DNA from: Terrisporobacter mayombei
GTDB taxonomy: Bacteria > Bacillota > Clostridia > Peptostreptococcales > Peptostreptococcaceae
Assembly: GCF_020748465.1 (NCBI RefSeq)
Contig: NZ_JAHZMP010000003.1
Location: 62,001 to 126,000 of the forward strand
DNA length: 64,000 nt
Direction: 5' to 3'
The notes beneath the pieces are model-generated. The model ran no database searches. It was not told where the DNA came from and was given only the letters and a program-made list of their open reading frames with translations. The position numbers and the translations under genes were made by a program. Shown one piece after another: positions 29,978 through 50,755 of the stretch. The first letter of the stretch is position 1. Each line of letters opens with the position of its first letter.

Positions 29978-32461
29978 TTACATTCCCTCCATAATTCTCA
30001 TTAATTTATCTATTTCATCTACACTTCTTTTTTCAGTTACACAAATCATAGTGCATCCTGATAATTCTGGATAATCTTTGCCTAAATCACATCCGCCAAG
30101 TATATTATTTTCTAACAATTTTTTATTTAGCTCATCTATTTCAATTGGTGATTTTACAACAAATTCATTGAAGAATTTTCCTTTAAATAGTAGTTGAAAT
30201 TTTTCACCTTCACTTATTTTCTTAGCTGCATAATGCGATTTTTGCATATTTTGCATTGCCACTTCTTCATAGCCTTTTTTACCCATAGTTGCCATATAAA
30301 TTGCTGAATTTAATGCACACAAACCTTGATTAGAGCATATATTTGAAGTTGCCTTTTCACGTCTAACATGTTGTTCTCTAGTTTGAAGAGTTAAACAGTA
30401 ACATCTATTTCCATCTCTATCTACTGTTTGGCCAACTACTCTACCAGGCATTTTTCTTATTAAACCTGATTTTATAGCTAAAAATCCCACATAAGGTCCA
30501 CCATAGTTTAATGTATTTCCTAAAGGTTGAGCATCTCCAACAGCCACATCTGCACCCACTTCTCCTGGAGATTTTAACACACTTAAAGTTATTGGATTTA
30601 CACTTAATACATACATGGCTTTTTTGTCATGAGCTATTTGACCAACTTCATCTACATCTTCTATGACACCAAAAAAGTTGGGGCTTTGAAGTAGTACACA
30701 AGCAGTATCCTCGTCTACTACTTCATTCAATCTATTTAAATCCGTCATACCTAACTCCCTATCATAATCAACTTCCACAACTTCACAATCATTAAATTGT
30801 ATATAAGTTTTTAATATTTTTCTTGTTTCTGGATGAACAGTTTTTCCTACTACTACTTTTTTACGTCTAGTTTTTGAAACTGCTAGTAGGCATCCTTCCA
30901 CTGCTGCTGTTGCACCATCATACATAGATGCATTTGCTATATCCATTTTTGTTATTTCTGATATCATTGATTGGAATTCAAATATACTTTGCAATGTTCC
31001 TTGACTTATTTCTGCTTGGTATGGTGTATATGCTGTGTAAAATTCACTTCTCGATGTAATATGTTTTATGATTGAAGGAACATAATGATCATAAGCCCCT
31101 GCTCCTAAAAAACAAGTTAATTGTTCTGTGCTAATATTTTTATCTGCTATGTTTTTTACTATTTGAATAACTTCTAATTCTGATTTTGATTCCTCTAATT
31201 CTAAATCTTTTTTTAATTTTAAACTGTCTGGGATATCTGAGAATAAATCGTCTATTGTATTTACTTTACATGCTTCAAGCATTTTTTCTTCATCTTCACG
31301 AGTTGCTGGTATATATGAATATTGCTTATATTCTTCCTTTACTATCTCTGTTTTTTTATATTGTTTTTTATAAAAAGGTCTTTTTACTATTACTGCACTT
31401 ACAAGTTTTTTTCTTACTCTTACTCCTATTTCACTTCCAATTTTGGCATAATTATTATCTATAATTGCCATTCCTATAAATTTATCTAAAGTAGGAGATT
31501 TAAGTCCAGTAGTAACAAATCCTATAACTTTATCATCTATTTCTATTTCATAGCCACTTCTTACCATACCTTTTCCTTGCATTTCAAAAGCAACTAATTT
31601 TTTTTGGGTTTCTTGTGATTTTAAGCCAATTAAAGCTTCTTTTCCTATGAAATTTTGTTTATTTAGTTTAACAAATACACCTAAACCACCTTCCATAGGA
31701 GATATCTCTTCACTTATTTCATGGCCATAAAGAGGTAAATTCACCTCTGCTCTTAAAGTATCTCTAGCTCCAAGGCCTGCTGGTGTTATATTTTGTTTTC
31801 CTACTTCCAAAATATCATTCCATATTTTCTCTACTACATTTTCATCACAGTATATTTCAAATCCGTCCTCACCAGTATAACCTGTTCTTGAAATTATACA
31901 TTTTTCTCCACAAATCTCTATATTATTTTTAAATTTGTAAAACTCTATATCACTTAAATTTATATTTACTAACTTAGATAGTATTTCTTCAGCTTTTGGA
32001 CCTTGTATTGCCAATTGAGAAACATGATTTGATATGTTATTTATATTTACATCAAATTTTTCACTTTGTCTTTTAATCCATTCATAGTCTTTATCTATAT
32101 TACCGGCATTGATTACTAGTAAATAATTTTCTTCTTTTATCATATAAACTAGTAAATCATCTACTGTCATTCCGTTTTCATAACACATTGGTGAGTATAT
32201 AATCTCTTCTGCTTTCAGATTTGTAATGTCATTTGTAATTAAATACTGTATAAAATTAAATGCTTCTTTTCCCTTAACTTCAACTTCTCCCATGTGAGAA
32301 ACATCAAACAATCCCGCACTTCTTCTTACATAGTCATGTTCTTTAGTTGCACTTATATACTCTAGTGGCATTTCCCATCCTGCAAATTCAAACATTTTTG
32401 CATTTAACTTTTCATGTGTAGAAAATAATTTAGTTCTTTTTAATTCCATGCATTCTATCAT
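29978..32461 (-). CDS. gcvTPA: Fused aminomethyltransferase / glycine dehydrogenase subunit 1 (GcvT-GcvPA)
   Basis: A natural fusion of 827 residues. Residues about 5-365 are GcvT ([58 protein letters not shown]). Residues about 381-827 are GcvPA ([54 protein letters not shown]). The linker is short and charged. Such a fusion is known from Clostridioides difficile and relatives. Start ATG 32461 follows GGGGGAG. The T and P activities are thus made in equal amounts; GcvH and the L protein are not in this window. Confidence 0.95.
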
Positions 32462-32498: not shown

Positions 32499-32545
32499 AA
32501 AAAAGAGGATATGCGGACACTACAAGTAGTAGCCACATATCCTCT
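32499..32545 (-). terminator. Expression-platform terminator of the glycine riboswitch
   Basis: On the minus strand AGAGGATATGTGG (32533-32545) pairs with CCGCATATCCTCT (32504-32516), followed by TTTTTT, just before gcvTPA. Its 5' arm begins in the last stem of the second aptamer, so glycine binding should prevent it (ON switch). Confidence 0.88.
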
Positions 32546-32742
32546 GTTCATTTACCTGAAAGTTTTAGCGAGAAAATCTCATTTTCTTCGTCGGTGACTT
32601 TCACTCCCCAGAGCAAAGTCTTTCCAGAGTCCCATTAATTTACGATATTCTTGCCTGAAAGTTTCTCTTGAAAATTTAATGGCGATTTTCAGATTGCTTC
32701 TTCGGCCTTTTTACCTCGGTAAAAACGTCTCTCGTAAATATC
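32546..32742 (-). promoter_or_regulatory. Tandem glycine riboswitch
   Basis: Two aptamers read on the minus strand. The first has ACGAGAGACG (about 32742), GCCGAAGAAGCAATCTG and ACTTTCAGGCAAGAATA, ending in GGGACTCTGGAAAG. The second has AGTGAAAGTCACCGACGAAG and ACTTTCAGGTAAATGAACAG. This double pattern with a shared terminator is the known cooperative glycine sensor ahead of gcv operons. Confidence 0.93.
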
Positions 32743-32871
32743 ATTTGGATTTATTTAATTCTAAAATCATTGTATGTGAGTTCATAATATTTTTCAACCG
32801 TTTTTGTTCATTTTCTTATATATTTTTTCGACAATTCAAAATCATCAGATAATTAAATGTAATAAGTATAC

Positions 32872-34511: not shown

Positions 34512-34634
34512 AATTTTCTCTCCATAAATATTTTTTAATAAGTATTTTTATTGTACTATTATTAGTATCTTATTACAATAAAGTATTATAAGCCAAAATA
34601 TTATATTAGTACTTTGTCTTTATTTTTTGTAAGT

Positions 34635-34665
34635 ATAAAAGTCAGGAGATTCCTCTCCTGACTTT
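34635..34665 (-). terminator. Terminator of the first giant surface-protein gene
   Basis: Stem AAGTCAGGAGA/TCTCCTGACTT (34639-34649 with 34654-34664) with a 4-base loop, then TTTTATACTT on the minus strand. It lies beyond the out-of-frame fibronectin remnant. Confidence 0.82.
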
Positions 34666-34696
34666 ATCTAATCATTCTCAATAAGTTTATATAGTT

Positions 34697-34864
34697 TTAA
34701 TTTATATATTTTATTACGTCACCATCTTTTATAGTGCTTACTTTGATATATTCACCATCCTTGCTAGTACTTCTATATATCTCGTATCCTTTTGCATATT
34801 TAGCATTTTTCCAAGATACTCTAACAAGTCCTGAGCTTGATGTGCTTAGTTTTACTTCTATTTT
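34697..34864 (-). pseudogene. Out-of-frame fibronectin III fragment after the first giant gene
   Basis: In the -1 frame relative to the giant gene, 55 codons read KIEVKLSTSSSGLVRVSWKN and GYEIYRSTSKDGEYIKVSTI, a clear fibronectin III front half. They end at a stop at 34697. The frame touches the stop region of the large gene (AGA AAA TAG; a one-base back-step gives AAA ATA GAA). The missing second half shows decay. The second giant gene has the equivalent fragment, complete. Confidence 0.8.
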
Positions 34865-37800
34865 CTAGGGCAAGTCTTTATACTATCTGAATATGAACCT
34901 AAGTAAATATTGTCTTTTATTTTTTTGTACGCCTTTACTTTATAATAATAGTTTTTACCACTTATAAGTTTCTTATCTGTATAAGTAGTTTCTCCATTTT
35001 CTTCTACTTGATCTATCAATTCATATTTTTTATTTTCCGAATTGTATCTGTAAATTCTATAACCTTCTGCTCTACTTACTTTATCCCAAGATAAAGTTAT
35101 ACTAGTTGAAGTTCTATTTTTAGTAGTAAGCCCTTTAACCTTCAATGGTGTAGTTGCTGTAGTTAATACTGTTGAGTGTTGTCCATTATATATATTTTCA
35201 CCTATTTTTTTATAAGCTCTTATTGCATATTTATATGTTGTTCCACTTTTTAGATTTTTAATCTCATAACTAGTATTATCATTTTCTGAAACTGTCTTTA
35301 AATAAGCATAAGTTTTATCTGATTCATTGTATTCATAAATTTTATATCCTTCACAATTTTCAACTTTACGCCATTTAACTTTCATGCTAGAAGTTGTTCT
35401 ATTTGTAGTAGTCACACCTGTAACTTTATTTGGATAAGTCGTAGTTGTTAGTACAGTTGAGTATGGACCAAAGTAATCATTTTCATTTACTGTTTTATAT
35501 GCTCTTACTGCATATTTATATGTTGATCCATCTTTTAATGAACTTATATTGTAACTTGTATTGTCATTTCCTTCTACTGTACCTATCAGTTTATAAGACT
35601 TATTATTCGAATTATACTCATACACTTTATATCCATCAGCATCATTTATTTTATTCCACTTTAACTTAAATCCTGATGTTGTTCTCTCAGTTGATGTTAA
35701 TCCTGTTACCTTAGACATATCTGGATTCATAATTTTAAATTCTTTTATTATAGTCCCAGTATAGTTTGCTTTACCAGTTATAGTTATAGTAGCTGTTCCT
35801 GGTTTTATGTTATTGGAGTATTTAGCATCAAAATCTTTTTCACTTTCTAATCCGTCAATTGTTACTTTTGGTTTTTGCTCTTGACCATCAAATTCTACTT
35901 CTGTAGAGCTTAGTTTAACATCCATATCTTCTATAGATTTAGCTCTTATTGTATATTCCACATATGCCATATCTGCATAAGTATTTCCTCTTGCTTTTAC
36001 TCTTACTTTTGCTGTACCAGCATTTGTATTATCCAAATATGAAATTGTATAGTGTTCTTTATCTATAACTTCTCCTGTTTCTTTATCCGTTATAGTTACT
36101 GCTGGAACCTTTTTATTTCCATTGTAAGTTGTTTTTGTATAGCTTAATTTAATATTTTCATCACCTATATATTTACCTTCTGCTCTACAGTTATATTCTG
36201 TGTGGCTACAAATATATTTGTATGAGCCATCCTCTAGATCAATTCTTTGGAAATCATGTCCTGGTGCTTTAGCCCCTATATAAGTTTTACTTATGTTACA
36301 CTCTGCACATGTTACTATTTTTTCTCCTCTTTGTGTACAATTGTGCTCTTCAGTAATTTTGCTATCTACATTATGAGATATACCATCTGTTCCAAAATGG
36401 TATACTTCGTCTTTTCCATAAGTAAACCAACCAGTTTGGAATTGTCCTTGGATAAAGTACATTTTCTTATCGGTATTTCCTACTGTTGCAAATCCTGTGT
36501 AAGTTCCTAATTCCTTAGAAGAACCACATTCTTTACAAGTTAAATATCCATCTTCATAAGAATAATCGTGACCATCTTGGCAGCTACCATTCTTAGTTTT
36601 TGTAAATGAATCTACTAATGTTCCATTACTTTCACGTGCTTCAATTTTAAATTCACTTCCATTGGTTGAAGCCGTAATATATAGTCCATCATAGTCTGAT
36701 TCTAATTTTGCAAAATGGAAATCTTTATTATCTGTTGGAGCATACGTTTTATCACCAGCTGAACCAGCTACCACATATACTGTTCCATTTTTTTCATCAA
36801 CTTTTCTGTTATTTAAAGGTTTTGTTCTTGCATATGCATGATCATGACCTGAAAATACAAAATCAAGTCCTACTTCATCTGCTACTGGAGGTAATAATTC
36901 ATTTATTATTTCATTTCCTCCTGCAGTATTTGTATAGTATGGCGGAGAATGTGTCACTAGTATTTTCCATGTTGCATTACTTTTTTTAGCATCTTCTCTT
37001 AACCATTCTAAATCCTTTTCAAGTTGTGCTCTAGATGTAGTATAGTTTATTACTCCTACATATACATTTCCATACTGTGCTGAATAATGACGTTTGTCTG
37101 GTAAACTATATATATTCTCAGCTATGTCAGCATAAGAATCACCATAGTGTTCATGGTTGCCTGTTACAGTTACAAAATCAGTGCTTCCAATTTTCGATAA
37201 AGAGCCTAAAGTTGTATTCCAATCTCCATATATATCAGCTTTATCAACTAAATCACCAACTTGTATTCCTGCATTGTAATCTACACCCGATTCGTTAAGT
37301 CTATCTACTATTCTATCTAATTTAGATGTGTTTTGTTGCTGTATATCTCCAATTACAAATAGGTTTGTATCTGTTCCTTTTCTTTTTAATGTAAATGTGT
37401 CTGTTTCTGACCATTTTTCTCCATCACCAACACGATAAATATATTTTACATTTGGAGTTAAACCTTCTGCAACTACGTTATTTATTCTAGCTGCTCCATT
37501 TTCTGCTGCTATAGAAGAACCAGTAAATGATTGTATTTTTGATGTACCTGGGCACTCTTTAAATGCTGCTTCTCCTTTTGAATCATACTCTTCTTTTTTA
37601 GCTATTTGCATTATAGCCTTAGCTTTAGATGTTTTTGGATGTGCAAACCATGATACCTTTTTGCTATTAGTAGAGTTTGATGTTGCATTATTTATTATAT
37701 TAAACGGCATACCATCTTCTTGACCCGTCGAACTTACACAGTGGAAAGTCGTAGAAAAAGAATATTTACCATCTTTTTCTGCATAAATAGAATATTTAGC

Positions 37801-40800
37801 CGGTTCTTTACATAGTTCAGTAGCATCTACCTCACCATTTTTATCTGTTTGTCCAATGTTCTTGTCTTCTCCATAATAAACAGTAGCTCCTTCAACTGGA
37901 TTACCATTTTCATCTTTTACATATACCTTAGCACTTTCTCCAACTATTAGTGTATCTGCCTCTACTGTATAATCACCTTGTACCTCTATACTCTCCATCT
38001 TACTTGAGAATGTTCCAGATGCGTTATCTTCTGATTCTGTTGAATATTCTATACTTCCTTTAGTTACTCCATAAGAATATTTAGATCCTTCTTTTAAGTT
38101 TCTCGGTATTTTAGAAGTTATTGTTGCTATACTTCCTTCACCAGAATTAAATGATAAGCCATCTTTACGAGTTGCATTTAGTTTTATTTCATTGTTCTTC
38201 TTAATATATTCAAATGTTCCTTCGTAATTATCATCAAACTTTACATCATGTTCATTAAAGTCACTTCCTACTTGTATCGTTGCAGAAACCGATTTAACGT
38301 CTTTTACTTTATTTGATTTTAATTCTAGTTCGTAATTTCCATTTAGCTTTGGATTTTCTAATGTTTTTGGTTCTAAAGAAACATTAGTGTATTTATCATC
38401 ACCTTTTATTGTAAATGTTCTACTTAAAGTTGCCTCATTACCAAATCCATCACGCACTAGTACTTCTACTGTATGGGTACCGTTTGCTAATACTAAATCA
38501 TTTAGGTAAAGTGTATTATCTCCTTTTTGAAGAACGTAATTAGGATGTTCAGTCATATTTTGTCCGTCTACAAAAATATATACTGTATCATGATCTATTC
38601 CTGTTGTATACTTGTTTTCTATATCATGGAACATTGATTTGAAAGAAACTGTATTTGTTTCTATCATATCACCATCTTTTAAGTCTTTTCCATTTAGTTG
38701 TAAATTATCTACTACTGGAGCTTCTGTATCATCTATATTTGCACCGTAAACGAATCTTAAGTTATCTATATATATACTACCTTTACATTGAGATTTCGGA
38801 ATTCTAGTTCCATCTGATAAGAAATCCCCATTACTTCCCTCTGCATTGTTAAGGTGCATTAATCTTATAGTTTCTCCTGCACTTAATGTAAATGGTCCTG
38901 TTAAGTGACTTAAATCAGCTTCGACATACTTCCATCCAGTCCAGTTGATTCCTCCCAGATTGCCATCTTTCATTTGCTCTGTAAAGTTTAAAGTTTGAAG
39001 AGCACCTTTGCCATCTCTTACACGTATACGTAACCATAGGTTTGGTGTTCCTTCTGGAGCATATACCCACATACCTATAGCTGTTGGGCTTCCTTCTATC
39101 GGTTTTGCATCTTCTGCGAATCCTATACAAGCTCCTTCCGTTCCGTTTATTTCAGAGAAGTCGTAATTAAGTTTTAAGGAGTTATTACCAAATCTAACTG
39201 GTTCTCCACTAGCTATATCAACTATTTCTGCTGATTCTTTTCCCCCTCTTTTGTCATCTGGATTAGAACCGTTAAAGTAGTGGCCAGTAACTAATTTAGT
39301 ATCTGTACTATCTATTTTATTTCCATCTTTATCATATAATTGCGATATACCGCCAGAAACTGCTGCTCTAGTAAAAGTCCAATAGTCTTTTGCTGGTGTA
39401 ACTTCTCCTGTTTCTGGATTTTTGTAATCCTCAAAGTCCATAGCAATAGAAGGTAGTCTACCTATTATTGCATGTATTTTTCCACTTACACTTGAGTTAT
39501 ATACTGAGGTAGCTGTAATATCTCCATTTACTGTTTCTGAATCAGAAGATGTAAATATATTCCCATTAAATGTTCCCATTCTTTTATCCGATAAAGTCCA
39601 GTTAAAGTCTCCATCTTTATATATTACATCTCTTCCTTTATATTTAACTATTATTCCTAAGTTACTACTTTTATCAAATCCTAAACTTATTTCCTCATTA
39701 CTAAAAGAAATACTATCTGGTTTCGCTATGGTTATATAAGTTGTTCCAACAACTTTACCACCGCTAGTTAAGTTAACTTTAATATCACCAGTTTTTCCAC
39801 TAGATGTAAATACTCCTTTGTCATTTATAGAACCAAGTTCTTTGGATTTCTCATCTAATTCCCATTTTATATCACTTGGAAGTGATGCTGATCCACCTGC
39901 AGAATCAACACCTTTTGCAGAAAACTCTACTGAAGAGTTTGGTGTATATACTGTGTTACTTGGTGAAACTGAAGCATGATCAAATTCACCTGTTGGCTTA
40001 GCTGTAGAAACTATAAGTAGAGTACTACTTACTTTTCTTTCCGTTCCATCTGATGGATTGTTTCTAATATTAAACTCATCACTACCCTCATATTGCGATG
40101 CGTATGTCGCTGATCCTCCACCATCAAGATTTAAAGCTGTTTCACACCCCAAACCAACTAGCATTTCTGCCACTTCTTGATATGTACGACCAGAAGACAC
40201 TGGATAGTTACGTCCATGAGTTGTAAATGTAACAACTGTTCCATCTGGCTTAATACCTACTGCACATCTTGTAGATATATAATTACTATCAAGATTAGGA
40301 GATACTTTTCCATCCTTAACTAATATTGAATCCCCTCCGATAGCCGCTTCAACATCATCAAGAGATACTTTTCCATCTCTAATTACTGCGCTACCGTCTT
40401 TTAGTACGGCAAAGTAAGGTGCATTATTAGCATGGTGATAAGCTTTTCCTTCCATAACTAAGGCACCATTTGGAGCACCATTTGACATATTATAGAAATC
40501 GCCATTGATACCTGCAACAACATTTAATCCTGTTGCTTTTTCAGCTGATTTAACTTGGTTTGTTAATTTATCCATCTTCCATGAAGTTGCATCATAACCA
40601 CCATAACCAGCTATAATTTTTGTTGTTGAAGTATTTTTTAAATCTACTTCACAAACATAGTCGATATTTTGTTTGTTTCCACTTTTGTTGTTTGTAATTA
40701 TTTCACTTTCAACAATACCCGGTGCAATTTTTTTCGTATTATTAGATACAACATATGTGTCTTCTGGTACAACTATACTTGCTGCAAAAGCAGAAATAGC

Positions 40801-40884
40801 CGTATTACTGGCCATTATCGCAAGTACCATAGTAATAGCTAATACTTTAGTAAAAAAACTACCCATGTTTTTCCCTCTAAACAT
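34858..40884 (-). CDS. Giant secreted phosphodiester glycosidase / metallophosphoesterase (paralog A)
   Basis: 2008 residues with a signal peptide (1-35, ending AFA-A). Order: phosphodiester glycosidase/NAGPA domain (about 75-295; GINGDFYNMS, NLDGGGSAT); Ig-like region (300-475); jelly-roll-like binding region (480-715); Ig-like (720-830); cohesin-like (832-965); carrier Ig (975-1050). A purple-acid-phosphatase-like N-domain (1065-1170) leads to a metallophosphoesterase (1175-1400; GD 1180, GDLVD 1210, GNHE 1242, H1312, GHDH 1346). Then one cell-wall-binding-like repeat (1462-1502), a Cys-His segment, two MBG-type Ig domains (1572-1718) and three fibronectin III domains (1723-2005). There is no LPxTG or SLH anchor. 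The tyrosine typical of purple acid phosphatases is replaced in GDLVD. Substrate is unknown. Confidence 0.85.
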   Translation of the reverse strand: MFRGKNMGSFFTKVLAITMVLAIMASNTAISAFAASIVVPEDTYVVSNNTKKIAPGIVESEIITNNKSGNKQNIDYVCEVDLKNTSTTKIIAGYGGYDATSWKMDKLTNQVKSAEKATGLNVVAGINGDFYNMSNGAPNGALVMEGKAYHHANNAPYFAVLKDGSAVIRDGKVSLDDVEAAIGGDSILVKDGKVSPNLDSNYISTRCAVGIKPDGTVVTFTTHGRNYPVSSGRTYQEVAEMLVGLGCETALNLDGGGSATYASQYEGSDEFNIRNNPSDGTERKVSSTLLIVSTAKPTGEFDHASVSPSNTVYTPNSSVEFSAKGVDSAGGSASLPSDIKWELDEKSKELGSINDKGVFTSSGKTGDIKVNLTSGGKVVGTTYITIAKPDSISFSNEEISLGFDKSSNLGIIVKYKGRDVIYKDGDFNWTLSDKRMGTFNGNIFTSSDSETVNGDITATSVYNSSVSGKIHAIIGRLPSIAMDFEDYKNPETGEVTPAKDYWTFTRAAVSGGISQLYDKDGNKIDSTDTKLVTGHYFNGSNPDDKRGGKESAEIVDIASGEPVRFGNNSLKLNYDFSEINGTEGACIGFAEDAKPIEGSPTAIGMWVYAPEGTPNLWLRIRVRDGKGALQTLNFTEQMKDGNLGGINWTGWKYVEADLSHLTGPFTLSAGETIRLMHLNNAEGSNGDFLSDGTRIPKSQCKGSIYIDNLRFVYGANIDDTEAPVVDNLQLNGKDLKDGDMIETNTVSFKSMFHDIENKYTTGIDHDTVYIFVDGQNMTEHPNYVLQKGDNTLYLNDLVLANGTHTVEVLVRDGFGNEATLSRTFTIKGDDKYTNVSLEPKTLENPKLNGNYELELKSNKVKDVKSVSATIQVGSDFNEHDVKFDDNYEGTFEYIKKNNEIKLNATRKDGLSFNSGEGSIATITSKIPRNLKEGSKYSYGVTKGSIEYSTESEDNASGTFSSKMESIEVQGDYTVEADTLIVGESAKVYVKDENGNPVEGATVYYGEDKNIGQTDKNGEVDATELCKEPAKYSIYAEKDGKYSFSTTFHCVSSTGQEDGMPFNIINNATSNSTNSKKVSWFAHPKTSKAKAIMQIAKKEEYDSKGEAAFKECPGTSKIQSFTGSSIAAENGAARINNVVAEGLTPNVKYIYRVGDGEKWSETDTFTLKRKGTDTNLFVIGDIQQQNTSKLDRIVDRLNESGVDYNAGIQVGDLVDKADIYGDWNTTLGSLSKIGSTDFVTVTGNHEHYGDSYADIAENIYSLPDKRHYSAQYGNVYVGVINYTTSRAQLEKDLEWLREDAKKSNATWKILVTHSPPYYTNTAGGNEIINELLPPVADEVGLDFVFSGHDHAYARTKPLNNRKVDEKNGTVYVVAGSAGDKTYAPTDNKDFHFAKLESDYDGLYITASTNGSEFKIEARESNGTLVDSFTKTKNGSCQDGHDYSYEDGYLTCKECGSSKELGTYTGFATVGNTDKKMYFIQGQFQTGWFTYGKDEVYHFGTDGISHNVDSKITEEHNCTQRGEKIVTCAECNISKTYIGAKAPGHDFQRIDLEDGSYKYICSHTEYNCRAEGKYIGDENIKLSYTKTTYNGNKKVPAVTITDKETGEVIDKEHYTISYLDNTNAGTAKVRVKARGNTYADMAYVEYTIRAKSIEDMDVKLSSTEVEFDGQEQKPKVTIDGLESEKDFDAKYSNNIKPGTATITITGKANYTGTIIKEFKIMNPDMSKVTGLTSTERTTSGFKLKWNKINDADGYKVYEYNSNNKSYKLIGTVEGNDNTSYNISSLKDGSTYKYAVRAYKTVNENDYFGPYSTVLTTTTYPNKVTGVTTTNRTTSSMKVKWRKVENCEGYKIYEYNESDKTYAYLKTVSENDNTSYEIKNLKSGTTYKYAIRAYKKIGENIYNGQHSTVLTTATTPLKVKGLTTKNRTSTSITLSWDKVSRAEGYRIYRYNSENKKYELIDQVEENGETTYTDKKLISGKNYYYKVKAYKKIKDNIYLGSYSDSIKTCPRK

Positions 40885-41007
40885 TTACTTCCCCCCAGTT
40901 TTATAAATTGTCAGATTAGCAATTTTAATTTGTTTAATTTGCTAATTTTTGCTGTTACAAGAAATAATTATATACTATTTTTTAAAGTTATGGTATCGTT
41001 TTTCTAA

Positions 41008-41067
41008 AAAATAAGCACTAATTTTCAATCTTTATACATTTAAATATAAATCTGAAAATTAGTGCTT
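41008..41067 (-). terminator. Terminator between the two giant genes
   Basis: Stem AAGCACTAATTTTCA/TGAAAATTAGTGCTT (41013-41027 with 41053-41067) followed by ATTTTTTAG on the minus strand. Each giant gene is therefore probably a separate unit; the promoter of paralog A must lie in 40885-41012. Confidence 0.82.
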
Positions 41068-41082
41068 TCTTCTATTTATTAT

Positions 41083-41373
41083 CTAGTTTTTATATACTTT
41101 AATATCACTATAGTAACTATTAACTTTTTCTTCATTTTCTTTTTTCTCATTTACTAACTTATAAGCTCTTATTTTATAATAATATGTTCTTCCTTTAGTA
41201 AGGCTTCTATTAGTATAACTTGTTGTGTTACCATTTTTTATTGTAGCTACTTTTGTATACTTTCCATCTTTACTAGTTGATCTATATATTTCATAACCAC
41301 CCGCATATTTAGCTTCGTTCCAAGATACTTTTACAGATGTATATGAAACTTGACTTGATTTTATGGTCTTGTA
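41083..41373 (-). pseudogene. Out-of-frame, otherwise intact fibronectin III module after the second giant gene
   Basis: An open -1 frame overlaps the last codons of the giant gene. It encodes about 95 residues (IKSSQVSYTSVKVSW, GGYEIYRSTSKDGKYTKVAT, GRTYYYKIRAYKLV) ending at a normal module boundary, YYSDIKVYKN. It has no RBS of its own. The giant frame stops at TAA (41361-41363) only a few codons after this frame opens. Either a one-base deletion cut off the last module, or it is joined by frameshifting; no canonical slippery site is visible. Confidence 0.75.
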
Positions 41374-44300
41374 CAAGTCTTATAAGTATCTGAGTATTCT
41401 CCTAAGTAAGTATTCTTACCTAATTTGCTACATGCTTTTACTCTATAAGAATAATTTTTACCACTAGCTAACTTCTTATCTGTGTAAGTAGTTTTTTCTT
41501 TTCCTTCTACTTCGCCAATCAACTCATACTTTTTATCTTCTGAGTTATATCTATATACTCTGTAACCATCAGCATTAGATACTTCTTTCCAAGATAAAGT
41601 TATACTTGTAGATGTTCTATCTGTAGCTTTCACAGCTTTAATTTTTAATGGACTTGTACTTGTTGTTAATGTAGATGAATACTCTCCATTATAGGTACTA
41701 TCACCTATTTTTTTGTATGATCTTACTGCATATTTATAAGTTGTTCCATTTTTTAATCCAGTTACATTATAGCTTGTATTTCCGCTTCCTAATATAGTTT
41801 TTACAAGTTTATAAGTATTATCTTCTGAATTGTATCTATAAACTTTATATCCATCGCAATTTGTAACTTTACTCCATTTTAACTTAAATCCTGAAGTTGT
41901 TCTATTTGATGTAGTAACTCCAGTTACTTTTGCTGTATAAGTAGTTGTTGTTAATACTTTTGAGTATTCTCCCAAGTATTTATGCCCATCTGATTCTTTA
42001 TATGATCTTACCGCATATCTATAAGTCGTTCCAACTTTTAAATTTGTTAAGTCATAGCCTGTATTTTCATTTCCTGATATATCTTTTACTTCTTTGTAGC
42101 TCTTGCTAGATGGATTATATTCATAGATTTTGTATCCATCACAGTCTGCAACTTTATTCCATTTTAATGTCATACTAGAAGTAGTTCTATTTTTAGTAGT
42201 AAGTCCTGTTACCTTTGATGGTGCTTTCACTACACTCATACTAAATACATCAGAATATGCTCCACTATAAGTAGATTTTCCTACAGCTTTATATGCTCTT
42301 ACTGCATATTTATAAGTTGTTCCAGCCTTCAAATCTTCTACTTTATAAGCAGTGCTATTTTTTCCTTCTAAAGTTTTTAATAAAGTATAAGACTTATCCT
42401 TTTCATTGTATTTATAAACTTTATATCCTGAAGCACTGCTTACATTATTCCATTTTAATTCCATACTCTCTGATGTTATATTATCAGCATATAATCCAGT
42501 TACCTTTCCTGGATAAGTGCTTGTTGTTATTACATTTGAATATGGACCTACTTGACTATAATTGTTGTCTAATTTCTTATATGCTCTTATAGCATATCTA
42601 TAAGTTGTTCCTTCTTTTAAGTCTTTTAGTACATAACTTGTATTATCTTTTCCTTCTACTGTATCTACTAATTTATAAGTTTTATCAGTAGCATTATATT
42701 CATAAACTTTGTATCCATCAGTATCTTCAACCTTGTTCCAACTTAATTTAAATCCTGTTAAAGTTCTATCTGAAGATTTTAATCCTGTTACTTTATCTAA
42801 TTTTTCTTCTGAAATTTTAAATTCTTTTGTTATAGTTCCAGTATAATTTCCCTTACCAGTTATAGTAACTTTAGCTGTTCCTGGTTCTATATTATTAGAA
42901 TATTTAACAGTAAAATCTTTTCCACTTTCTAGCCCTGATATTGTAACTTCTGGTTTCTGCTCTTCACCACTGCAATCAATTTGTGTAAAGCTCAGCTTTG
43001 CATCCATGTCTGATATAGATTTAGCTTTTATAGTATATTCTACATAAGACATACCTGCATATGTGTTCCCCTTGGCCTTCACTCTTACTCTAGCAGTACC
43101 TGCGTTTACATTATCCCAATAAGATACTGTATAATCTTCTCCTTTTACTAGGCCATCAATTGTAACTGCTGGTGACTTTTTATTTCCATTGTAAGTAGTT
43201 GTTGTATAGCTTAATTTAATTTTTTTGTCACCAATATATTTTCCTACTGCTTTACAGTTATATTCTTTGTTTCCACAAATATATTTGATGCTACCATCTG
43301 GTTGTTCTTCTGGTTGGAAATAGTGTCCTGGTGCCTTAGCTCCTGTGTATGTTTGGCTTATATTACACTCTTTACATGTTACAATTTTTTTCCCTTGTTG
43401 TGTACAGTTATGTTCTTCAAGTATCTTAACATCTAAGTCATGAGCTAAACCATCATTACCAAAGTGATATACTTCATCTACTCCATAAGTAAACCATCCT
43501 GTTTTGAATTTACCACCTATGAAATACATCTTTTTATTAGTTTTTTCATCTTTAGCAAATCCTGTATATTCTCCTAATTCCTTAGACGAACCACATCTTG
43601 AACAAGTTAAATATCCATCATCATAAACATAATCATGTCCATCTGAACAATCTTTTGACGTTTTTGTTTTTGTGTAAGTATCTATTACTGTACCGTCTGC
43701 TTCATGAGTTTCTACTTTAAACTCGCTATCTGTAGCTGATCCTGTTAAATATATGGCACCAAAATCTGTACTTGGAGGATTCGCAAAGTGGAAGTCTTTA
43801 TTATCAACTACACCATAAGATTTTTCACCTGTAGAACCACATATATAATATACTGTACCATCATCTTTATTGACTTTACCTTCTTTTATAGGTTGTGTTC
43901 TAGCATAAGAATGATCATGTCCTGAGAATACAAAATCAATTCCTGCTGCTTCTGCTACTGGTGGAACTAATTCATTCATCATTTCATTAGAACCTGATGG
44001 GTTTGAATAGTATGCTGGTTGATGTGTAGTAAGAACTTTCCATTTAGCTTTACTATTTTTAGCATCTTCTTTTAACCATTCTAAATCAGATTTAAGTTGA
44101 CTCTTACTATTTGTATAACTTATAGTTGCAACATAAACATTTCCGTATTCCACAGAATAACGTCTAGAATTTGGTAAATTGTAAATATTTTGGGCTGCAT
44201 CGCCATCTAAATCTCCCATAAATTCATGATTTCCTAAAACATGAACCATGTCTACTCCGCTTAGATATGAATCACCAAATATATTTAGTACGTCTACCCA

Positions 44301-47300
44301 GTTACTATAAACTGAAGCATCATCAACAGAATCTCCTGTTTGAATACCAAAACTATAATTTCCTTTTGATAACTGTTGAGAAATCTTATCTACATTTTCT
44401 TTATTTGCTATTTGTGTATCTCCAATAACAAAGAAGTTTGTATTTGTTCCTGAGCGTGTAGTTTTAAATTCTTTCACTTCTGACCAGTTTTTACCATCAC
44501 CTACACGATATGCATATTTAGTATTTTTATTTAAATTAGTTGCATTTACCTTATTTACTCTTACAGAATAGTTTTTACTAGCATCTGAAGATCCTAAGAA
44601 ACTTTGAAGTTTACTTGTTCCCTCTTTATTAATAAATGCTGCTTCTCCCCTTTTATCATATTCTGCTTTAGTAGCATATTGAATTATTGCTTTGCTGTCA
44701 GATTTTTGTGGATTTGATATCCAAGTTATATTTTTGCTACCTGTAGCATTGCTTGTTGCATTTGATATAACATATTCAGGTAGCCCATCTTCATTACCTG
44801 CAGAAGTTGAACTTTGAACATTTATTGAGTAAGAAATATCTTCACCTTTTTCAGCATAAATAGTATATTTTCCTACTTCTTTGCATAATTCATCAGTCTC
44901 AAGATAACCTTCTTTATTTGTTTTTCCTAAAAGAGTTCCATCTGATTTATAAATAGAAGCATCCTCAACACCTTTTTCTTCTAAATCGTAAACATGAATT
45001 TTTCCACTAGACCCTACAATCATAGCTTCTGATTTAACAGAAAGTGGTGCCACTACTTCTAAGCTTTCTTGTGATGTGGCAAAAGTGCCACTGAATCCTT
45101 CTTCTTTTTCGCTGTTATAAGTAACTTTACCCTTTTGAGCGCAATATGTAAATTTTGATCCCTTTTTCAAATCTTTAGGTACTTTAAAACTTAATGTTGC
45201 TATATTTGCTTCACCTTTATCTGAAAATAAACCACCTATTAAGGATTGTTCTTCTTTTCTAGTTGCATTTAATTTTATAGTCCTTGCCTTAGAATCGTAT
45301 GTAGCAGTACCTTCAAATCCATCATTAAATTTGACTTCATAATCTTTAAAATCATTATTTATTTTAATTTCTGTTTCTATAGATTTTATATCTCCTATAT
45401 TGTCAGTAGATAATCCCAGCTCAAAGTTTTTATTTAAAATAGGATTACCTTCACTTATTGGTGAAAGAGTTACATTTGTATATTCTTTATCACCTTTTAC
45501 AATAAAGTTTCTTGTTTCTATTGTTTCATTACCGAACTTATCACGTACTAAAACTTTTACATTATGTGGTCCATTTGAAAGTTTTACATCATATAAGTTT
45601 ATAGCATTATCTCCAGGTACTAAAACACAGTTCTTTTCTGAAGACATGTTTACACCATCTAAATAAATACGAACTGTATCATGATCTATTCCACTAGTAT
45701 TTTTATTTTCAATATCACTAAATAAAGATTTAAAACTAATAGTATTTGTATCTATTGTCATTCCATCTTTTATTTCAGTATTATTAGCTGTTATACTATC
45801 TACTTTTGGATTATCTATATCATCCTTATTGGCACCATATACAAATTGTAAATTATCTATATATATGGAACCTTTACGTTGAGCTTCTGGCACTTCAACC
45901 ATTTCATAAGTTCCATCTTCTTTTGTTGGACCTTTTGTATAGAAGCCTTGTTGTGTTCCAGGCACATACATTAATCTCATAGTTTGACCTTTCACTAATG
46001 AGAATGGTCCAGTACGTCCTTCCAGACTAGCCTCAACATATTTCCATCCATTCCAGTCAATACCACCCATTTTTCCTTCAGAAATTTTAGCTTCCTCTGT
46101 AAAATTCAGTGGTACAAGATTTCCATTTCCATCCTTTAAATATATTCTAAGCCAAAGGTTAGGTGTTCCTTCTGGCGCATATACCCACATTCCTATACCT
46201 GTTGGTGTTCCTTCTATTTTTTTAGTTTCTTCAGTAAATCCTAAGCAAGCTCCTTCTGTACCTGTAATTCCACTAGAAAAATCATAGTCAAGTTTTAATG
46301 AGTTGTTGCCAAAACGAACTGGTTCTCCACTATCTAAATCAACCAACTTAGCTGATTCTTTACCTCCACGTCCATAATTTCCAAGTAATAATAAAGACTC
46401 TGTATCATTTGCCTCTCTTGTTATTGTATAAAAATCTTCAGCCTTTGTAGTAGTGCCTGTCTCCTCATCTACAACATCTTCAAAGTCTAGCATAACTGAA
46501 GGTAATCTACCGATAATTGCATAGACACTTCCTGACACTGAAGAATTGTATACAGAAGTTGCTGTAATATGACCATTAATTGTTTCTGAGCTTGATGATG
46601 TAAATATATTTCCATTAAATGAACCCATTTTTTCATTATCCATAGTCCATTTAAAATCACCATCTTTATAAATTACATCTCTACCTTTATATTTAACAAC
46701 TAATCCTAGATCACTACTTTTATCAAAACCTAAACTTACCTCTTCACTACTAAAAGAAATACTATCTGGTGCTGCTATTGTAATTTGCGTAGAACCTACT
46801 ACTTTTCCACCACTTAATACATTTATTTTAACATCTCCAGCTTTTCCATTTGATGTAAATAAACCTTTATTATTTATTTGTCCATAAGAAGAGGATGAAT
46901 TATCTAGTTTCCACGTTAAATCACTTGGAAGTGTCGCTGCTCCTCCTGATGAATCTACCCCTGTAGCTTCAAACTGAACTTTTGAATTTGGTGTATAAAC
47001 TAAGTCATTAGGAGAAACTGAGGCATGATCAAATTCTCCTGTTGGTTTTGCAGTAGAAACTATAAGTAATGTACTACTTACCTTTCTCTCTGTTCCATCT
47101 GATGGACTATTTCTTACTTCAAAATTCTCACTACCTTCATATTGAGATGCATAAGTTGCAGAACCACCACCATCTAAATTAAGAACTGTAACACATCCAA
47201 GACCTATCATAAGTTCAGCCATTTCTCTGTATGTATGACCATTAGACAATGGATAGTTACGTCCATGAGTAGTAAAAGTAACTACAGTTCCATCTGGTTT

Positions 47301-47942
47301 TATTCCTATAGCTTGTCTAGAATATAATATGGTTTGGTATGAGTTATTATCATCAAGATTAACTACTTTACCATCTCTAACCATAATTACATCTCCACCA
47401 ACAGCTGATTCTACATCATTTATTGGTACATTTCCTTCTCTAATTTCAGCTTTACCATCTTTAGTTATAGCAAAATATGGATTAGTCCCCTTGTTATATG
47501 CCTTCCCTTCCATGATAAGCATTCCTAAAGGTTGGCCATTTGACATGTTATAAAAATCAGCATTAATTCCTGCTACCACATTTAATCCTGTTTTTTTCTC
47601 AGCTGCCTTAGCTTGATTTGTTAACTTATCCATTTTCCAAGATGAAGCATCATAACCAGCATATCCAGAAATAATTTTTGTCGTCGATGTACCTTGTAAA
47701 TCAATTTCACATGCATAATCAATATTTTGCTTTGTTCCCGACTTATTGTTTGTTACAATTGTACTTTCTTCAATACCTGGAGCTACTTTTTTTGTAGTAT
47801 TCGATACTACATAACTGCCTTCAGGCACAGTAATATTTGCTGCAGCAATCATAGACAAATTGTTCCCCACCCCTAAGGCAACAATCATTGTAAACACTAA
47901 CACTTTCATTAGTAACTTGGTCACTTTACCATTTCTATCCAT
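41361..47942 (-). CDS. Giant secreted phosphodiester glycosidase / metallophosphoesterase (paralog B)
   Basis: 2193 residues, a tandem paralog of the next gene with the same domain order and high similarity throughout. Signal peptide 1-35; phosphodiester glycosidase about 75-298 (GINADFYNMS, NLDGGGSAT at 255); jelly-roll-like region about 480-705; cohesin-like about 820-955. The phosphatase-like N-domain (about 1060-1165) is followed by the metallophosphoesterase (GDTQ 1174, GDSVDD 1203, GNHE 1237, H1307, GHDH 1341). One wall-binding-like repeat (about 1457-1500), two MBG-type Ig domains (about 1567-1710) and five fibronectin III domains (about 1715-2190) follow, two more than paralog A. No sortase signal is present. 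Probably released or held non-covalently at the wall. Confidence 0.85.
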   Translation of the reverse strand: MDRNGKVTKLLMKVLVFTMIVALGVGNNLSMIAAANITVPEGSYVVSNTTKKVAPGIEESTIVTNNKSGTKQNIDYACEIDLQGTSTTKIISGYAGYDASSWKMDKLTNQAKAAEKKTGLNVVAGINADFYNMSNGQPLGMLIMEGKAYNKGTNPYFAITKDGKAEIREGNVPINDVESAVGGDVIMVRDGKVVNLDDNNSYQTILYSRQAIGIKPDGTVVTFTTHGRNYPLSNGHTYREMAELMIGLGCVTVLNLDGGGSATYASQYEGSENFEVRNSPSDGTERKVSSTLLIVSTAKPTGEFDHASVSPNDLVYTPNSKVQFEATGVDSSGGAATLPSDLTWKLDNSSSSYGQINNKGLFTSNGKAGDVKINVLSGGKVVGSTQITIAAPDSISFSSEEVSLGFDKSSDLGLVVKYKGRDVIYKDGDFKWTMDNEKMGSFNGNIFTSSSSETINGHITATSVYNSSVSGSVYAIIGRLPSVMLDFEDVVDEETGTTTKAEDFYTITREANDTESLLLLGNYGRGGKESAKLVDLDSGEPVRFGNNSLKLDYDFSSGITGTEGACLGFTEETKKIEGTPTGIGMWVYAPEGTPNLWLRIYLKDGNGNLVPLNFTEEAKISEGKMGGIDWNGWKYVEASLEGRTGPFSLVKGQTMRLMYVPGTQQGFYTKGPTKEDGTYEMVEVPEAQRKGSIYIDNLQFVYGANKDDIDNPKVDSITANNTEIKDGMTIDTNTISFKSLFSDIENKNTSGIDHDTVRIYLDGVNMSSEKNCVLVPGDNAINLYDVKLSNGPHNVKVLVRDKFGNETIETRNFIVKGDKEYTNVTLSPISEGNPILNKNFELGLSTDNIGDIKSIETEIKINNDFKDYEVKFNDGFEGTATYDSKARTIKLNATRKEEQSLIGGLFSDKGEANIATLSFKVPKDLKKGSKFTYCAQKGKVTYNSEKEEGFSGTFATSQESLEVVAPLSVKSEAMIVGSSGKIHVYDLEEKGVEDASIYKSDGTLLGKTNKEGYLETDELCKEVGKYTIYAEKGEDISYSINVQSSTSAGNEDGLPEYVISNATSNATGSKNITWISNPQKSDSKAIIQYATKAEYDKRGEAAFINKEGTSKLQSFLGSSDASKNYSVRVNKVNATNLNKNTKYAYRVGDGKNWSEVKEFKTTRSGTNTNFFVIGDTQIANKENVDKISQQLSKGNYSFGIQTGDSVDDASVYSNWVDVLNIFGDSYLSGVDMVHVLGNHEFMGDLDGDAAQNIYNLPNSRRYSVEYGNVYVATISYTNSKSQLKSDLEWLKEDAKNSKAKWKVLTTHQPAYYSNPSGSNEMMNELVPPVAEAAGIDFVFSGHDHSYARTQPIKEGKVNKDDGTVYYICGSTGEKSYGVVDNKDFHFANPPSTDFGAIYLTGSATDSEFKVETHEADGTVIDTYTKTKTSKDCSDGHDYVYDDGYLTCSRCGSSKELGEYTGFAKDEKTNKKMYFIGGKFKTGWFTYGVDEVYHFGNDGLAHDLDVKILEEHNCTQQGKKIVTCKECNISQTYTGAKAPGHYFQPEEQPDGSIKYICGNKEYNCKAVGKYIGDKKIKLSYTTTTYNGNKKSPAVTIDGLVKGEDYTVSYWDNVNAGTARVRVKAKGNTYAGMSYVEYTIKAKSISDMDAKLSFTQIDCSGEEQKPEVTISGLESGKDFTVKYSNNIEPGTAKVTITGKGNYTGTITKEFKISEEKLDKVTGLKSSDRTLTGFKLSWNKVEDTDGYKVYEYNATDKTYKLVDTVEGKDNTSYVLKDLKEGTTYRYAIRAYKKLDNNYSQVGPYSNVITTSTYPGKVTGLYADNITSESMELKWNNVSSASGYKVYKYNEKDKSYTLLKTLEGKNSTAYKVEDLKAGTTYKYAVRAYKAVGKSTYSGAYSDVFSMSVVKAPSKVTGLTTKNRTTSSMTLKWNKVADCDGYKIYEYNPSSKSYKEVKDISGNENTGYDLTNLKVGTTYRYAVRSYKESDGHKYLGEYSKVLTTTTYTAKVTGVTTSNRTTSGFKLKWSKVTNCDGYKVYRYNSEDNTYKLVKTILGSGNTSYNVTGLKNGTTYKYAVRSYKKIGDSTYNGEYSSTLTTSTSPLKIKAVKATDRTSTSITLSWKEVSNADGYRVYRYNSEDKKYELIGEVEGKEKTTYTDKKLASGKNYSYRVKACSKLGKNTYLGEYSDTYKTCTRP

Positions 47943-48149
47943 AAGACTCCCCCTATTAATTTACTTTCAATTTGTAATTATGCATATATTTTAATATATT
48001 CTACCAATTACATTTAATTCCTCTATATTAGATTAAAATATGACAAATTTCTTCATTTATTAATAAATTTTTATATAATATAAAACGAATGTATCGTAAT
48101 TTATCTATTTTATCTTACAAAGTTTAATCTAGTGCAGTTTACTATCAAA

Positions 48150-48181
48150 ATAAAAAGCCAGAAGTTTTATCTCCTGACTTT
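48150..48181 (-). terminator. Terminator of brnQ
   Basis: Minus-strand AAAGTCAGGAG pairs with CTTCTGGCTTT using two G-U pairs, then TTTTATTTT, 12 bases past the stop. The 47943-48149 stretch, the upstream region of paralog B, shows no other motif I recognise. Confidence 0.7.
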
Positions 48182-48192
48182 ATTTATGGCTA

Positions 48193-49560
48193 TTATATTG
48201 CATCAGAACTTCCAGTAAAAGTTTCTTCTTTCCCCCTACATAGTAAATAGGACAAAACAGCTATTATTCCACAACCTATAACCCACGCTAACTTTATATC
48301 AGCAAGTGGCATTTTCAAATAAAAACTGTCAAATATGCCCAAGTTCCATCCGCATAAATAACTATATGTATGAACAGCATCTAATATGCCATATATGAAA
48401 CTTACAATCATCGTACATTTGGCAGCAAATAAAAATCTAACATTTTTAACATTAGGTATTAAAACATAGTATAAAGTTAAAATAATCAAAGGAGGTGACA
48501 TGGAGTCTAAAAGCGGTCCCACATATGCTAATATATTTTCCAAACCTAATGCTCCCATAATAGTGCTACTAACACAAATTATAATTACAGACTTTTTATA
48601 AGATAATTTTTTATTTGAAACATCTTCAAAAAACTCTGCTGCAGCTGCTGTAATACCGACTGCCGTTGTCAATGATGCTATGGTTAATGCTATACAGTAT
48701 AAAACTCCACCTACATTTCCTAAAAGTAAAAAGGCTACTTTTGTGTAAAGTTTAACATAAGTTAAATCTCCTGTTGGACCAGAAATTCCCCCTGTTGATG
48801 CACCTATAATCATGTGACCAAGATGACTCAAAGTTAACATTCCAATTCCAAGTATACCTACTTTTATAATATTTTTATTCATCTTATCTGGTGTAACACC
48901 TTTGACTTTTAAGTTATTTAGTATAACTATTCCAAATACTAATGCACATAGAATTTCCCCTGTTGCATAACCTCCCGTAAATCCGTAAGAAAAGGCTGAA
49001 TTATCATAAGATTTTGGTGCCCAAGTTGTAGATATTGGTGTTAATAATCCTTTTCCAATTATACAGATAACTATAATTACCAATACTGGAAATAAAATTT
49101 TACTTATTTTATCCATAGTATCCGAACGTCCAGATAAAAACCAGTAGGTAATTAAGTAAAACACTATAGAAAATAATATTATTGGTATTTTACTATTAGT
49201 ATTTAATCCTGTAGCTTGAACTATCCCATCCCAAGAAGATGCGCTCATTCTAGGAACTGCATATAGTGGACCTAGTAATAGTATTGTCATTGTAGTAAAT
49301 ACTGGTCCAAATTTCGGCATAATATTCTTAGCTAAAGAATTGTATGTTCCATTACCTCTTACTAATGCTACATAAGCAAGAAGAGGCAATAATAATGCGG
49401 TTAAAAAAGCTCCTGCAAAAGCTACAAATACTGAACTACCACTTTCTTTTCCCCAGTTCATCGGCCATGTCATACTTGCAGATCCAAAATGCATGGAAAA
49501 TAAAGCTGCTCCCATAAAAAATAGTGTTCCAATTGATAAATCTCTCTCATTTTTTTTCAT
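48193..49560 (-). CDS. brnQ: Branched-chain amino acid carrier (BrnQ/LIVCS family)
   Basis: Sodium-coupled symporter for leucine, isoleucine and valine: 455 residues, about twelve helices. The LIVCS motifs are GTLFFMGAALFSMHFGSASM at the N-terminus, LLLGPLYAVPRMSASSWDG and SLTTAVGITAAAAEFFEDVS. The gene is monocistronic. Two identical TGTAAACGTTTACA palindromes upstream suggest catabolite (CcpA) or other LacI-family control, sensible in an amino-acid fermenter. Confidence 0.92.
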   Translation of the reverse strand: MKKNERDLSIGTLFFMGAALFSMHFGSASMTWPMNWGKESGSSVFVAFAGAFLTALLLPLLAYVALVRGNGTYNSLAKNIMPKFGPVFTTMTILLLGPLYAVPRMSASSWDGIVQATGLNTNSKIPIILFSIVFYLITYWFLSGRSDTMDKISKILFPVLVIIVICIIGKGLLTPISTTWAPKSYDNSAFSYGFTGGYATGEILCALVFGIVILNNLKVKGVTPDKMNKNIIKVGILGIGMLTLSHLGHMIIGASTGGISGPTGDLTYVKLYTKVAFLLLGNVGGVLYCIALTIASLTTAVGITAAAAEFFEDVSNKKLSYKKSVIIICVSSTIMGALGLENILAYVGPLLDSMSPPLIILTLYYVLIPNVKNVRFLFAAKCTMIVSFIYGILDAVHTYSYLCGWNLGIFDSFYLKMPLADIKLAWVIGCGIIAVLSYLLCRGKEETFTGSSDAI

Positions 49561-49586
49561 AAAGCCCTCCCTTATAAAGGTTCTTT

Positions 49587-49600
49587 TGTAAACGTTTACA
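49587..49600. promoter_or_regulatory. cre-like operator, proximal
   Basis: Perfect 14-bp palindrome TGTAAACGTTTACA, matching the cre core TGNAANCGNTNNCA, 27 bases before the brnQ start and downstream of the probable promoter. Confidence 0.75.
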
Positions 49601-49665
49601 CAGTCAATAAAAGTGTATAATTACAATAAGTAGGCATATCTTAATTAAATAAAATATAACATTTT

Positions 49666-49679
49666 TGTAAACGTTTACA
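49666..49679. promoter_or_regulatory. cre-like operator, distal
   Basis: Second identical copy of TGTAAACGTTTACA, centre 79 bases from the first. A pair this exact suggests cooperative or looping repression by CcpA or a LacI-type regulator; no LacI gene is encoded nearby. Confidence 0.75.
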
Positions 49680-49877
49680 TATCCTTATACTTTATATATA
49701 GTCTGTTTTATAGTGGTTGTCAATTATTTTTCTTTCTTAGTTTTTATTAACAAAGTCACAGATTATTTTTCTTATTTGTCGATCATATTTAGTAGAAATT
49801 TAGGCCATATGACATAATTTTTTTCTATTACTAAAGTTTAAAATAATATTTATTTAATATGTTAATATACATAAAAA

Positions 49878-49990
49878 TCACACTTCTTTATCTGAATATA
49901 AAAGATAATCTCTTAATCCACTCCAGTATATACTTTTAGTCAGTTCCATTATCTCTTCATCAGAAAAGTTTTGACCTTTAATGTTATTGT
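49878..49990 (-). pseudogene. Out-of-frame C-terminal tail of the EFR1 ferredoxin gene
   Basis: In the -1 frame, from about 50035, the sequence reads NGNIKNGYNINNFMNNNIKG and ends RDYLLYSDKEV with a stop at 49878-49880. It plausibly is the original C-terminus. The junction is the homopolymer pair TTTTTAAAA near 50037; one extra A would restore a single frame. Confidence 0.6.
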
Positions 49991-50755
49991 TCATAAAATT
50001 ATTAATGTTATATCCATTTTTAATATTACCATTTTAAAAACACTTGGTTGCAATGCTTTATTAGGACAATAGTATAAACAAGCTGTACAAAAGTTACACA
50101 TAAATTTAGGTTTCTTGTTGCTCATTATAATGTTTCCACAAGAGCATATTTTCTCACACAATCCACACCCACTACAGTTTTTATTTACTTTTATTGTTTT
50201 TCCTAAAATTTTCACACCTATTTTTTCTATTTCAAATACTTTAGAAATACATTTATCTATTATAGGAGGGTTAATTTTTCTTATCTTTTCATTAACTATA
50301 TCATCTATAATAAGATCTATTTTCTCAGGAAGAATATTAAAAAGTGCTCTTGATAAATAATCTGGTGTAGGAATTAGAAAATTACTAGGCATAATCAGTG
50401 AATTTTCATAAAAAACTTCACAATCTTGTTTCTCTGATAACTTTATACTACTTAATCTCCCCGCTCTATTAAAAATAACTTTTCCTCCTGCTGATATAGA
50501 TATAATTGCAGCCTTAGTTTTATTTCCCTTAGGTAAATTTTTGATCCACTTATATACTACTTCCGGTGCATTGGCTCCATGTATAGGAAAAATAAGTATA
50601 ATTAAATCACAACTTTTTTGACTTACTAGATTATTCTTAGATACTTTCTCAAAAAAAACATCATAGTTCATATCTATTAACTTATTATTTATAAGTTCTG
50701 CTATAATCTTGCTACTACCAGTACCTGTATAATAAATTATTTTAATTTTATTCAT
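49991..50755 (-). CDS. EFR1 family flavodoxin/ferredoxin protein, tail frameshifted
   Basis: About 254 residues. The N-terminal flavodoxin fold has an FMN loop YYTGTGSSK (about 8-16) and FPIHGANAPEVVYKWIKNLP. Two C-terminal [4Fe-4S] motifs follow, CSGCGLCEKIC and CNFCTACLYYCP. EFR1 proteins are electron-transfer proteins of anaerobes with unknown partners. The last about 19 encoded residues (after ALQPSVFK) look unlike the family and arise from a shift at TTTTTAAAA; the natural tail continues in the -1 frame. ATG 50755 follows GGGAGGG. Confidence 0.82.
   Translation of the reverse strand: MNKIKIIYYTGTGSSKIIAELINNKLIDMNYDVFFEKVSKNNLVSQKSCDLIILIFPIHGANAPEVVYKWIKNLPKGNKTKAAIISISAGGKVIFNRAGRLSSIKLSEKQDCEVFYENSLIMPSNFLIPTPDYLSRALFNILPEKIDLIIDDIVNEKIRKINPPIIDKCISKVFEIEKIGVKILGKTIKVNKNCSGCGLCEKICSCGNIIMSNKKPKFMCNFCTACLYYCPNKALQPSVFKMVILKMDITLIIL

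Follow-up and report, generated by a model that had tools for sequence, protein, structure and literature searches.

Two adjacent genes in the 64,000-nucleotide stretch of Terrisporobacter mayombei DNA analysed here (the window) each encode a very large secreted protein with two putative enzymes, and they raise the question of what such a protein does and on which substrate. The two intact open reading frames, P1 (2008 amino acids; 34858-40884) and P2 (2193 amino acids; 41361-47942), lie in tandem on the minus strand, share 62% identity, and each start with a typical Sec signal peptide, read directly off the sequence. A preliminary description had assigned to both an uncovering-enzyme-type phosphodiester glycosidase (NAGPA) and a calcineurin-type phosphoesterase about 900 residues further on; Pfam and AlphaFold agreed with both assignments, the motifs it had quoted were all found in both paralogs, and the distance was correct. 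The order of modules in P1 and P2 is NAGPA, Ig-like, jelly-roll, a middle Ig/cohesin-like region, Pur_ac_phosph_N, Metallophos, and C-terminal fibronectin repeats.

In P1, the NAGPA domain (residues 121-291; 40012-40524, minus strand, as are all features of P1 and P2 below) was identified by Pfam (E = 1e-35), structural comparison, and conservation, with N127, D129, R206, and D254-G-G-G-S258 as key residues. Ig-like modules follow (residues 298-475; 39460-39993), assigned from the colinear family profile and beta-rich in the AlphaFold model, and then a region with a jelly-roll carbohydrate-binding-module-like domain (residues 476-716; 38737-39459; VIA-align Z of about 11). The middle region (residues 717-1050; 37735-38736) was placed by the family profile and a weak Big_1 match as Ig/cohesin-like; the cohesin-like module named in the preliminary description is supported only indirectly, through a Pfam Cohesin match in the homologous region of a Paenibacillus member (L112). 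Beyond it lie the fibronectin-type Pur_ac_phosph_N domain (37390-37707; E = 1.5e-15), the phosphoesterase domain (36832-37362; Metallophos E = 4e-17, and conservation; key residues D1180, D1211, N1243-H-E, H1312, H1347, and H1349), and fibronectin type III repeats with approximate limits (34870-35727; Pfam fn3, three stretches, 1.5e-23). The corresponding matches in P2 were NAGPA (residues 121-294; 47061-47582; E = 1.6e-35), Pur_ac_phosph_N (44460-44777; E = 4.9e-20), Metallophos (43905-44435; E = 2.6e-15), and fn3 (41373-42815, limits approximate; five stretches, 3.5e-45), so that the fibronectin modules noted earlier were found in both proteins. All of these NAGPA, Pur_ac_phosph_N, Metallophos, and fn3 matches were above the curated Pfam cut-offs, the two NAGPA matches scoring 123.9 and 123.2 bits (cut-off, 25) and covering profile positions 2-168/169. 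A search of P1 and P2 against NCBIfam gave no match, and Pfam recognised neither a wall-anchor domain nor a lamin-tail domain (LTD) in either protein. Directly downstream of each stop codon, and out of frame, there is a further fibronectin-like coding stretch (34697-34852 after P1 and 41083-41364 after P2, minus strand); as the frame shift is identical after both paralogs, the break may predate their duplication.

The AlphaFold models of P1 were confident for residues 50-720 (mean pLDDT, 90) and 717-1435 (mean pLDDT, 94.6), and the predicted folds matched solved structures of both enzyme types; at the level of fold, the models gave no ground for rejecting the earlier assignment. The NAGPA domain superimposed on BACOVA_00430 (3OHG) with a Z score of 31.7 (rmsd 2.2 over 240 residues) and on vertebrate NAGPA (6PKG and 6PKU) with Z scores of 26 to 28, and shares their NAGPA/DUF2233 fold and DGGGS motif, whereas in those proteins the domain stands alone or in a vertebrate context. 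The jelly-roll that had been proposed earlier was borne out by a model resembling CBM27, CBM11, and the xanthanase carbohydrate-binding module (Z of about 11). Pur_ac_phosph_N and the phosphoesterase together matched the purple acid phosphatase (PAP) of kidney bean (6HWR; Z 40.4, rmsd 2.5 over 360 residues), and the phosphoesterase also matched PhoD (2YEQ; Z 24.9) and resembled the phosphodiesterase GpdQ.

Conservation was assessed in an alignment of 79 fusion proteins (P1 numbering), and catalytic residues were assigned from conservation together with fold. In the NAGPA domain, D254, G256, G257, and S258 were present in 79 of 79 proteins and G255 was changed in two, the 67 rows that cover this part all have N127 and, with one exception, D129, and R206 was kept in 74 of the 79 proteins. 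The phosphoesterase was similar: D1211 was invariant (79/79), D1180, H1244, E1245, H1312, and H1349 were found in every row having the position, and N1243 was found in all but one row; the five metal-binding motifs are thus conserved across the family. Since both catalytic sites are kept in 79 proteins, both enzymes are probably live, and the simplest reading of the alignment is that both sites are functional in the fusions. The defining feature of PAPs is the tyrosine ligand of the GDxxY motif, which forms the Fe(III)-tyrosinate. At this position the fusion proteins have Asp (72/79) or Glu (7/79) and never Tyr (0/79), and they have DxQ in place of the DxG of plant PAPs. Hence the earlier label "purple-acid-phosphatase-like" holds for the fold, including the two-domain arrangement with an N-terminal FN3 and the five metal-binding motifs shared with plant PAPs (1KBP and 6HWR), but by the defining ligand the phosphoesterase of P1 and P2 lies outside the PAP family.

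A collection-wide scan combined with profile searches recovered the six-module core, in the same order, in at least about 75 other proteins, a lower bound that is biased toward close relatives (the best 80 matches of the scan). The relatives were retrieved with an alignment of the core; a scan with P1 alone, with seeds in variable regions, gave none. Given this colinearity, an assembly artefact, which was considered as an origin of the fusion, was ruled out. Among the matches listed, the core occurred in Clostridia, Bacilli (Levilactobacillus, Schleiferilactobacillus, Neobacillus, Fictibacillus, and Paenibacillus), and Coriobacteriia and in Micromonospora, as well as in Erysipelotrichaceae and Collinsella. 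In 297 genomes of the host's order, full-length relatives were found in five genomes besides the host, all of another family, and other genomes of the host's genus had no NAGPA match; NAGPA-only and phosphoesterase-only proteins were also present in the order. Some relatives carry wall anchors (CWB2 and SLH). Mean identity to P1 across the family was 45% in the NAGPA half versus 36% in the phosphoesterase half.

The fusion itself is no novelty: a 2024 paper already names NAGPA as one of the fusion partners of secreted ShfP-type phosphoesterases (PMC11488536), and the architecture is known and widespread among bacterial surface proteins. Like members of the ShfP (YvnB) family, P1 and P2 are secreted and have Ig-like modules and a Pur_ac_phosph_N-type FN3 adjoining a calcineurin-like domain with intact metal-binding motifs (PMC11488536). 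ShfP of Bacillus subtilis differs: it has a lamin-tail domain but lacks NAGPA, its phosphoesterase sits within an Ig domain, and its motif reads NHD, whereas P1 and P2 have an NHE motif and an N-terminal NAGPA-Ig-jelly-roll core. ShfP-family members with domains other than the lamin tail have also been described (PMC11488536), and the absence of an LTD bears on orthology to B. subtilis ShfP, not on membership of the wider radiation. The teichoic-acid phosphodiesterase PhoD likewise has its calcineurin-like domain after an FN3-like domain, but it lacks NAGPA and differs in size and architecture. Large Bacillota surface proteins that join NAGPA to many diverse binding modules and a second enzyme have been reported as well (PMC12419801); there NAGPA is paired with a TelC-type lipocone domain instead of a phosphoesterase. 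In the literature collection searched, we found no paper in which "phosphodiester glycosidase" and "metallophosphoesterase" occur together and no description of the biochemistry or activity of NAGPA-phosphoesterase fusions, in keeping with the earlier remark that neither activity was known to be characterised in such a fusion.

NAGPA enzymes, as exemplified by the uncovering enzyme, hydrolyse the bond between sugar and phosphate (sugar-O-phosphate), and a phosphomonoester remains. Such domains are common in bacteria, but we know of almost no substrates for the bacterial ones. The explanation that accounts best for the data as a whole, and that we hold tentatively, at slightly less than even confidence, is that P1 and P2 are two-enzyme wall-glycopolymer proteins of a widespread family combining NAGPA with a ShfP/PAP-fold phosphoesterase. 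We infer their substrate, step order, and physiological role as follows. The proteins would be wall associated or secreted and would hold both enzymes on one carbohydrate-binding scaffold, with the jelly-roll and the other beta-domains binding a bacterial wall glycopolymer that is anionic, either teichoic-acid-like or linked through sugar-1-phosphate. In a sugar-1-phosphodiester, NAGPA would hydrolyse the C-O bond at the anomeric carbon, a phosphomonoester would remain, and the di-metal phosphoesterase would next cleave that phosphate ester or a neighbouring glycerol-phosphate link; the products, phosphate plus sugar or glycerol, could be used in wall remodelling or phosphate salvage. The order glycosidase then phosphatase, proposed from the anatomy of the proteins, would be chemically sensible. 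With both sites kept across two phyla on a two-enzyme scaffold, the search for substrates narrows to phosphodiester-linked surface glycans, and the culturable Levilactobacillus and Bacillaceae members make the family's substrate experimentally approachable.

Evidence for a wall polymer came from gene neighbourhoods and from related proteins. Genes for a TagF-type protein, an ABC-2 exporter, and an ABC ATPase lie just upstream of the fusion gene in one genome (G083), and genes for a TupA-like ATP-grasp protein and ABC-2 lie upstream in another (G191), where a TagF-type gene is found at a distance of about 10 kb. TagF-type genes were near the fusion gene in only two of six genomes; elsewhere most neighbours were unrelated. 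The host genome has five such genes (Glyphos_transf), none of them in the 64-kb window around P1 and P2. These associations in a few genomes, on which the link to wall polymers rests, are hints. ShfP is required for extracellular glycerol release, with lipoteichoic acid as its proposed target, and PhoD is a teichoic-acid-degrading enzyme (PMC11488536).

Of the substrates suggested in the preliminary description, which ranged from host glycoproteins to teichoic-acid-like polymers, the bacterial ones fared better. As a two-step enzyme for host glycoproteins, the fusion would take GlcNAc off GlcNAc-1-P-6-mannose and then dephosphorylate the exposed mannose-6-phosphate. We consider this unlikely, even though NAGPA shares its fold with the vertebrate uncovering enzyme, mannan-binding CBM27 is one of the carbohydrate-binding modules that the jelly-roll resembles, and many of the relatives are gut bacteria. 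Soil and food bacteria share the core (environmental Bacillaceae, Levilactobacillus from food, and Micromonospora); the annotated neighbours in the window include no gene for sugar uptake or transport and no glycoside hydrolase; and the N-x-D of the bacterial family is NGG in vertebrate NAGPA, with Gly at the position of Asp129, which is kept in all but one of the bacterial members that have it. Given the distribution (soil, food, and gut) and the teichoic-acid-gene neighbours in two genera, we find bacterial wall glycopolymers more plausible as substrates than host glycoproteins.

A possible, though doubtful, alternative is that the two domains, instead of acting one after the other on a single linkage, cut separate bonds, whether in one polymer or in several, the phosphoesterase being a ShfP/PhoD-like phosphodiesterase or glycerol-releasing enzyme and NAGPA trimming sugar-1-phosphate substituents. 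It is consistent with the requirement for ShfP, which functions without NAGPA, in glycerol release (PMC11488536), with the fold likeness to the phosphodiesterases PhoD and GpdQ, with the separate NAGPA-only and phosphoesterase-only proteins of the order, and with the stronger conservation of the NAGPA half. The domains have nevertheless stayed on one polypeptide in two phyla with both sites intact, which suggests a common substrate. Finally, the NAGPA-TelC proteins have been proposed as conflict effectors (PMC12419801), and the patchy distribution of the family and the absence of the P1-P2 segment from sister species would fit an exoenzyme of inter-bacterial conflict or predation that strips a competitor's wall polymer; as the neighbourhood of P1 and P2 showed no recognisable immunity gene, toxin-delivery module, or link to a secretion system, and most members have generic surface modules, this is quite improbable.

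Counting against the two-enzyme wall-glycopolymer explanation, many NAGPA proteins of the host's order have a phosphoesterase-like C-terminal domain that lacks the metal ligands. These proteins of about 950 amino acids (about 830 to 1070; L009, L010, L013-L015, and L123-L142), which are common in the order, keep the NAGPA-Ig-jelly-roll core. When 24 sequences of their C-terminal domain were compared with the phosphoesterase profile, the match was colinear with a probability of 84 to 89 (E of about 1e-5 to 1e-7 for a single comparison), versus 0.1 for controls (reversed, NAGPA, PAP_N, jelly-roll, and middle-region profiles); with only seven sequences of the diverged domain the probability was 1.8. 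The metal ligands were absent from the aligned domain, which from profile comparison alone would be a diverged phosphoesterase domain. The glycosidase is thus evidently maintainable without a live second enzyme.

A second lead came from CotH kinases; we found no description in the literature of the CotH association or of the metal-ligand-free sister domain, and no paper that connects CotH with NAGPA. Four proteins (L029, L100, L102, and L104), which form one clade, carry a CotH kinase domain as a C-terminal fusion. A CotH gene lies within 400 bp of the fusion gene at eight loci (L026, L047, L050, L054, L074, L084, L085, and L092) and no more than about 2.3 kb away at three others (L045, L076, and L086), and its position varies, upstream of some fusion genes and downstream of others. 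CotH matches were rare (zero to three per genome in the seven genomes checked), and in one genome (G291) the sole CotH gene overlaps the fusion gene. His1347, a metal ligand by homology, was replaced by Asp or Asn in exactly the four CotH-fused proteins of the 79. The adjacency and fusion in several lineages, and the change of a ligand His only in the CotH-fused clade, led us to consider a secreted phosphate writer-eraser, in which secreted CotH-type kinases would place phosphate on a surface protein or glycan, and the (glycosyl)phosphate would be trimmed or removed by the NAGPA-phosphoesterase; we regard this as speculative and rather unlikely. Neither the window nor the host genome has a CotH match, so P1 and P2 would be a kinase-less version of such a module.

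P1 and P2 lie, with genes for a BrnQ-type transporter and a flavodoxin/4Fe-4S (ferredoxin-like) protein, in a segment of about 16.2 kb (34592-50853) that is missing at the same site in two sister species. One sister locus (L143) aligns to the window until 50854 and resumes at 34591 with 73 bases between, at 92 to 93% identity on both sides, and the other (L144) has a similar empty site; in these species the genes flanking the pair are 84 to 94% identical and nearly adjacent. The tree places P1 and P2 as a sister pair next to a Massilimicrobiota protein (support, 88) and apart from the relatives in their own order. The segment looks like a recent insertion, and the pair was likely gained by horizontal transfer; alternatively, the segment may have been lost in the sister species. 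The GC content is 24 to 34% within the segment and 24 to 30% around it, with the maximum over P1 and P2, and the host genome has a second BrnQ copy (56% identical). The window contains no tRNA that could explain an insertion, Rfam gave no riboswitch at the pair, and predicted promoters and terminators were not clearly more numerous than in shuffled sequences. Similar terminator-like hairpins (AGTCAGGAGA...) are present near both sides of P1-P2, at 48154-48181 and at about 34610-34660, and a like hairpin occurs in the empty-site spacer of one of the sister species (G005).

Elsewhere in the window, Rfam identified a cobalamin riboswitch at 5095-5271 (minus strand; 108 bits). A single 827-amino-acid open reading frame at 29978-32461 (minus strand) fuses an aminomethyltransferase (GCV_T) to a glycine dehydrogenase (GDC-P); it sits behind two glycine riboswitch aptamers (32534-32744) and is conserved in four of five sister genomes.
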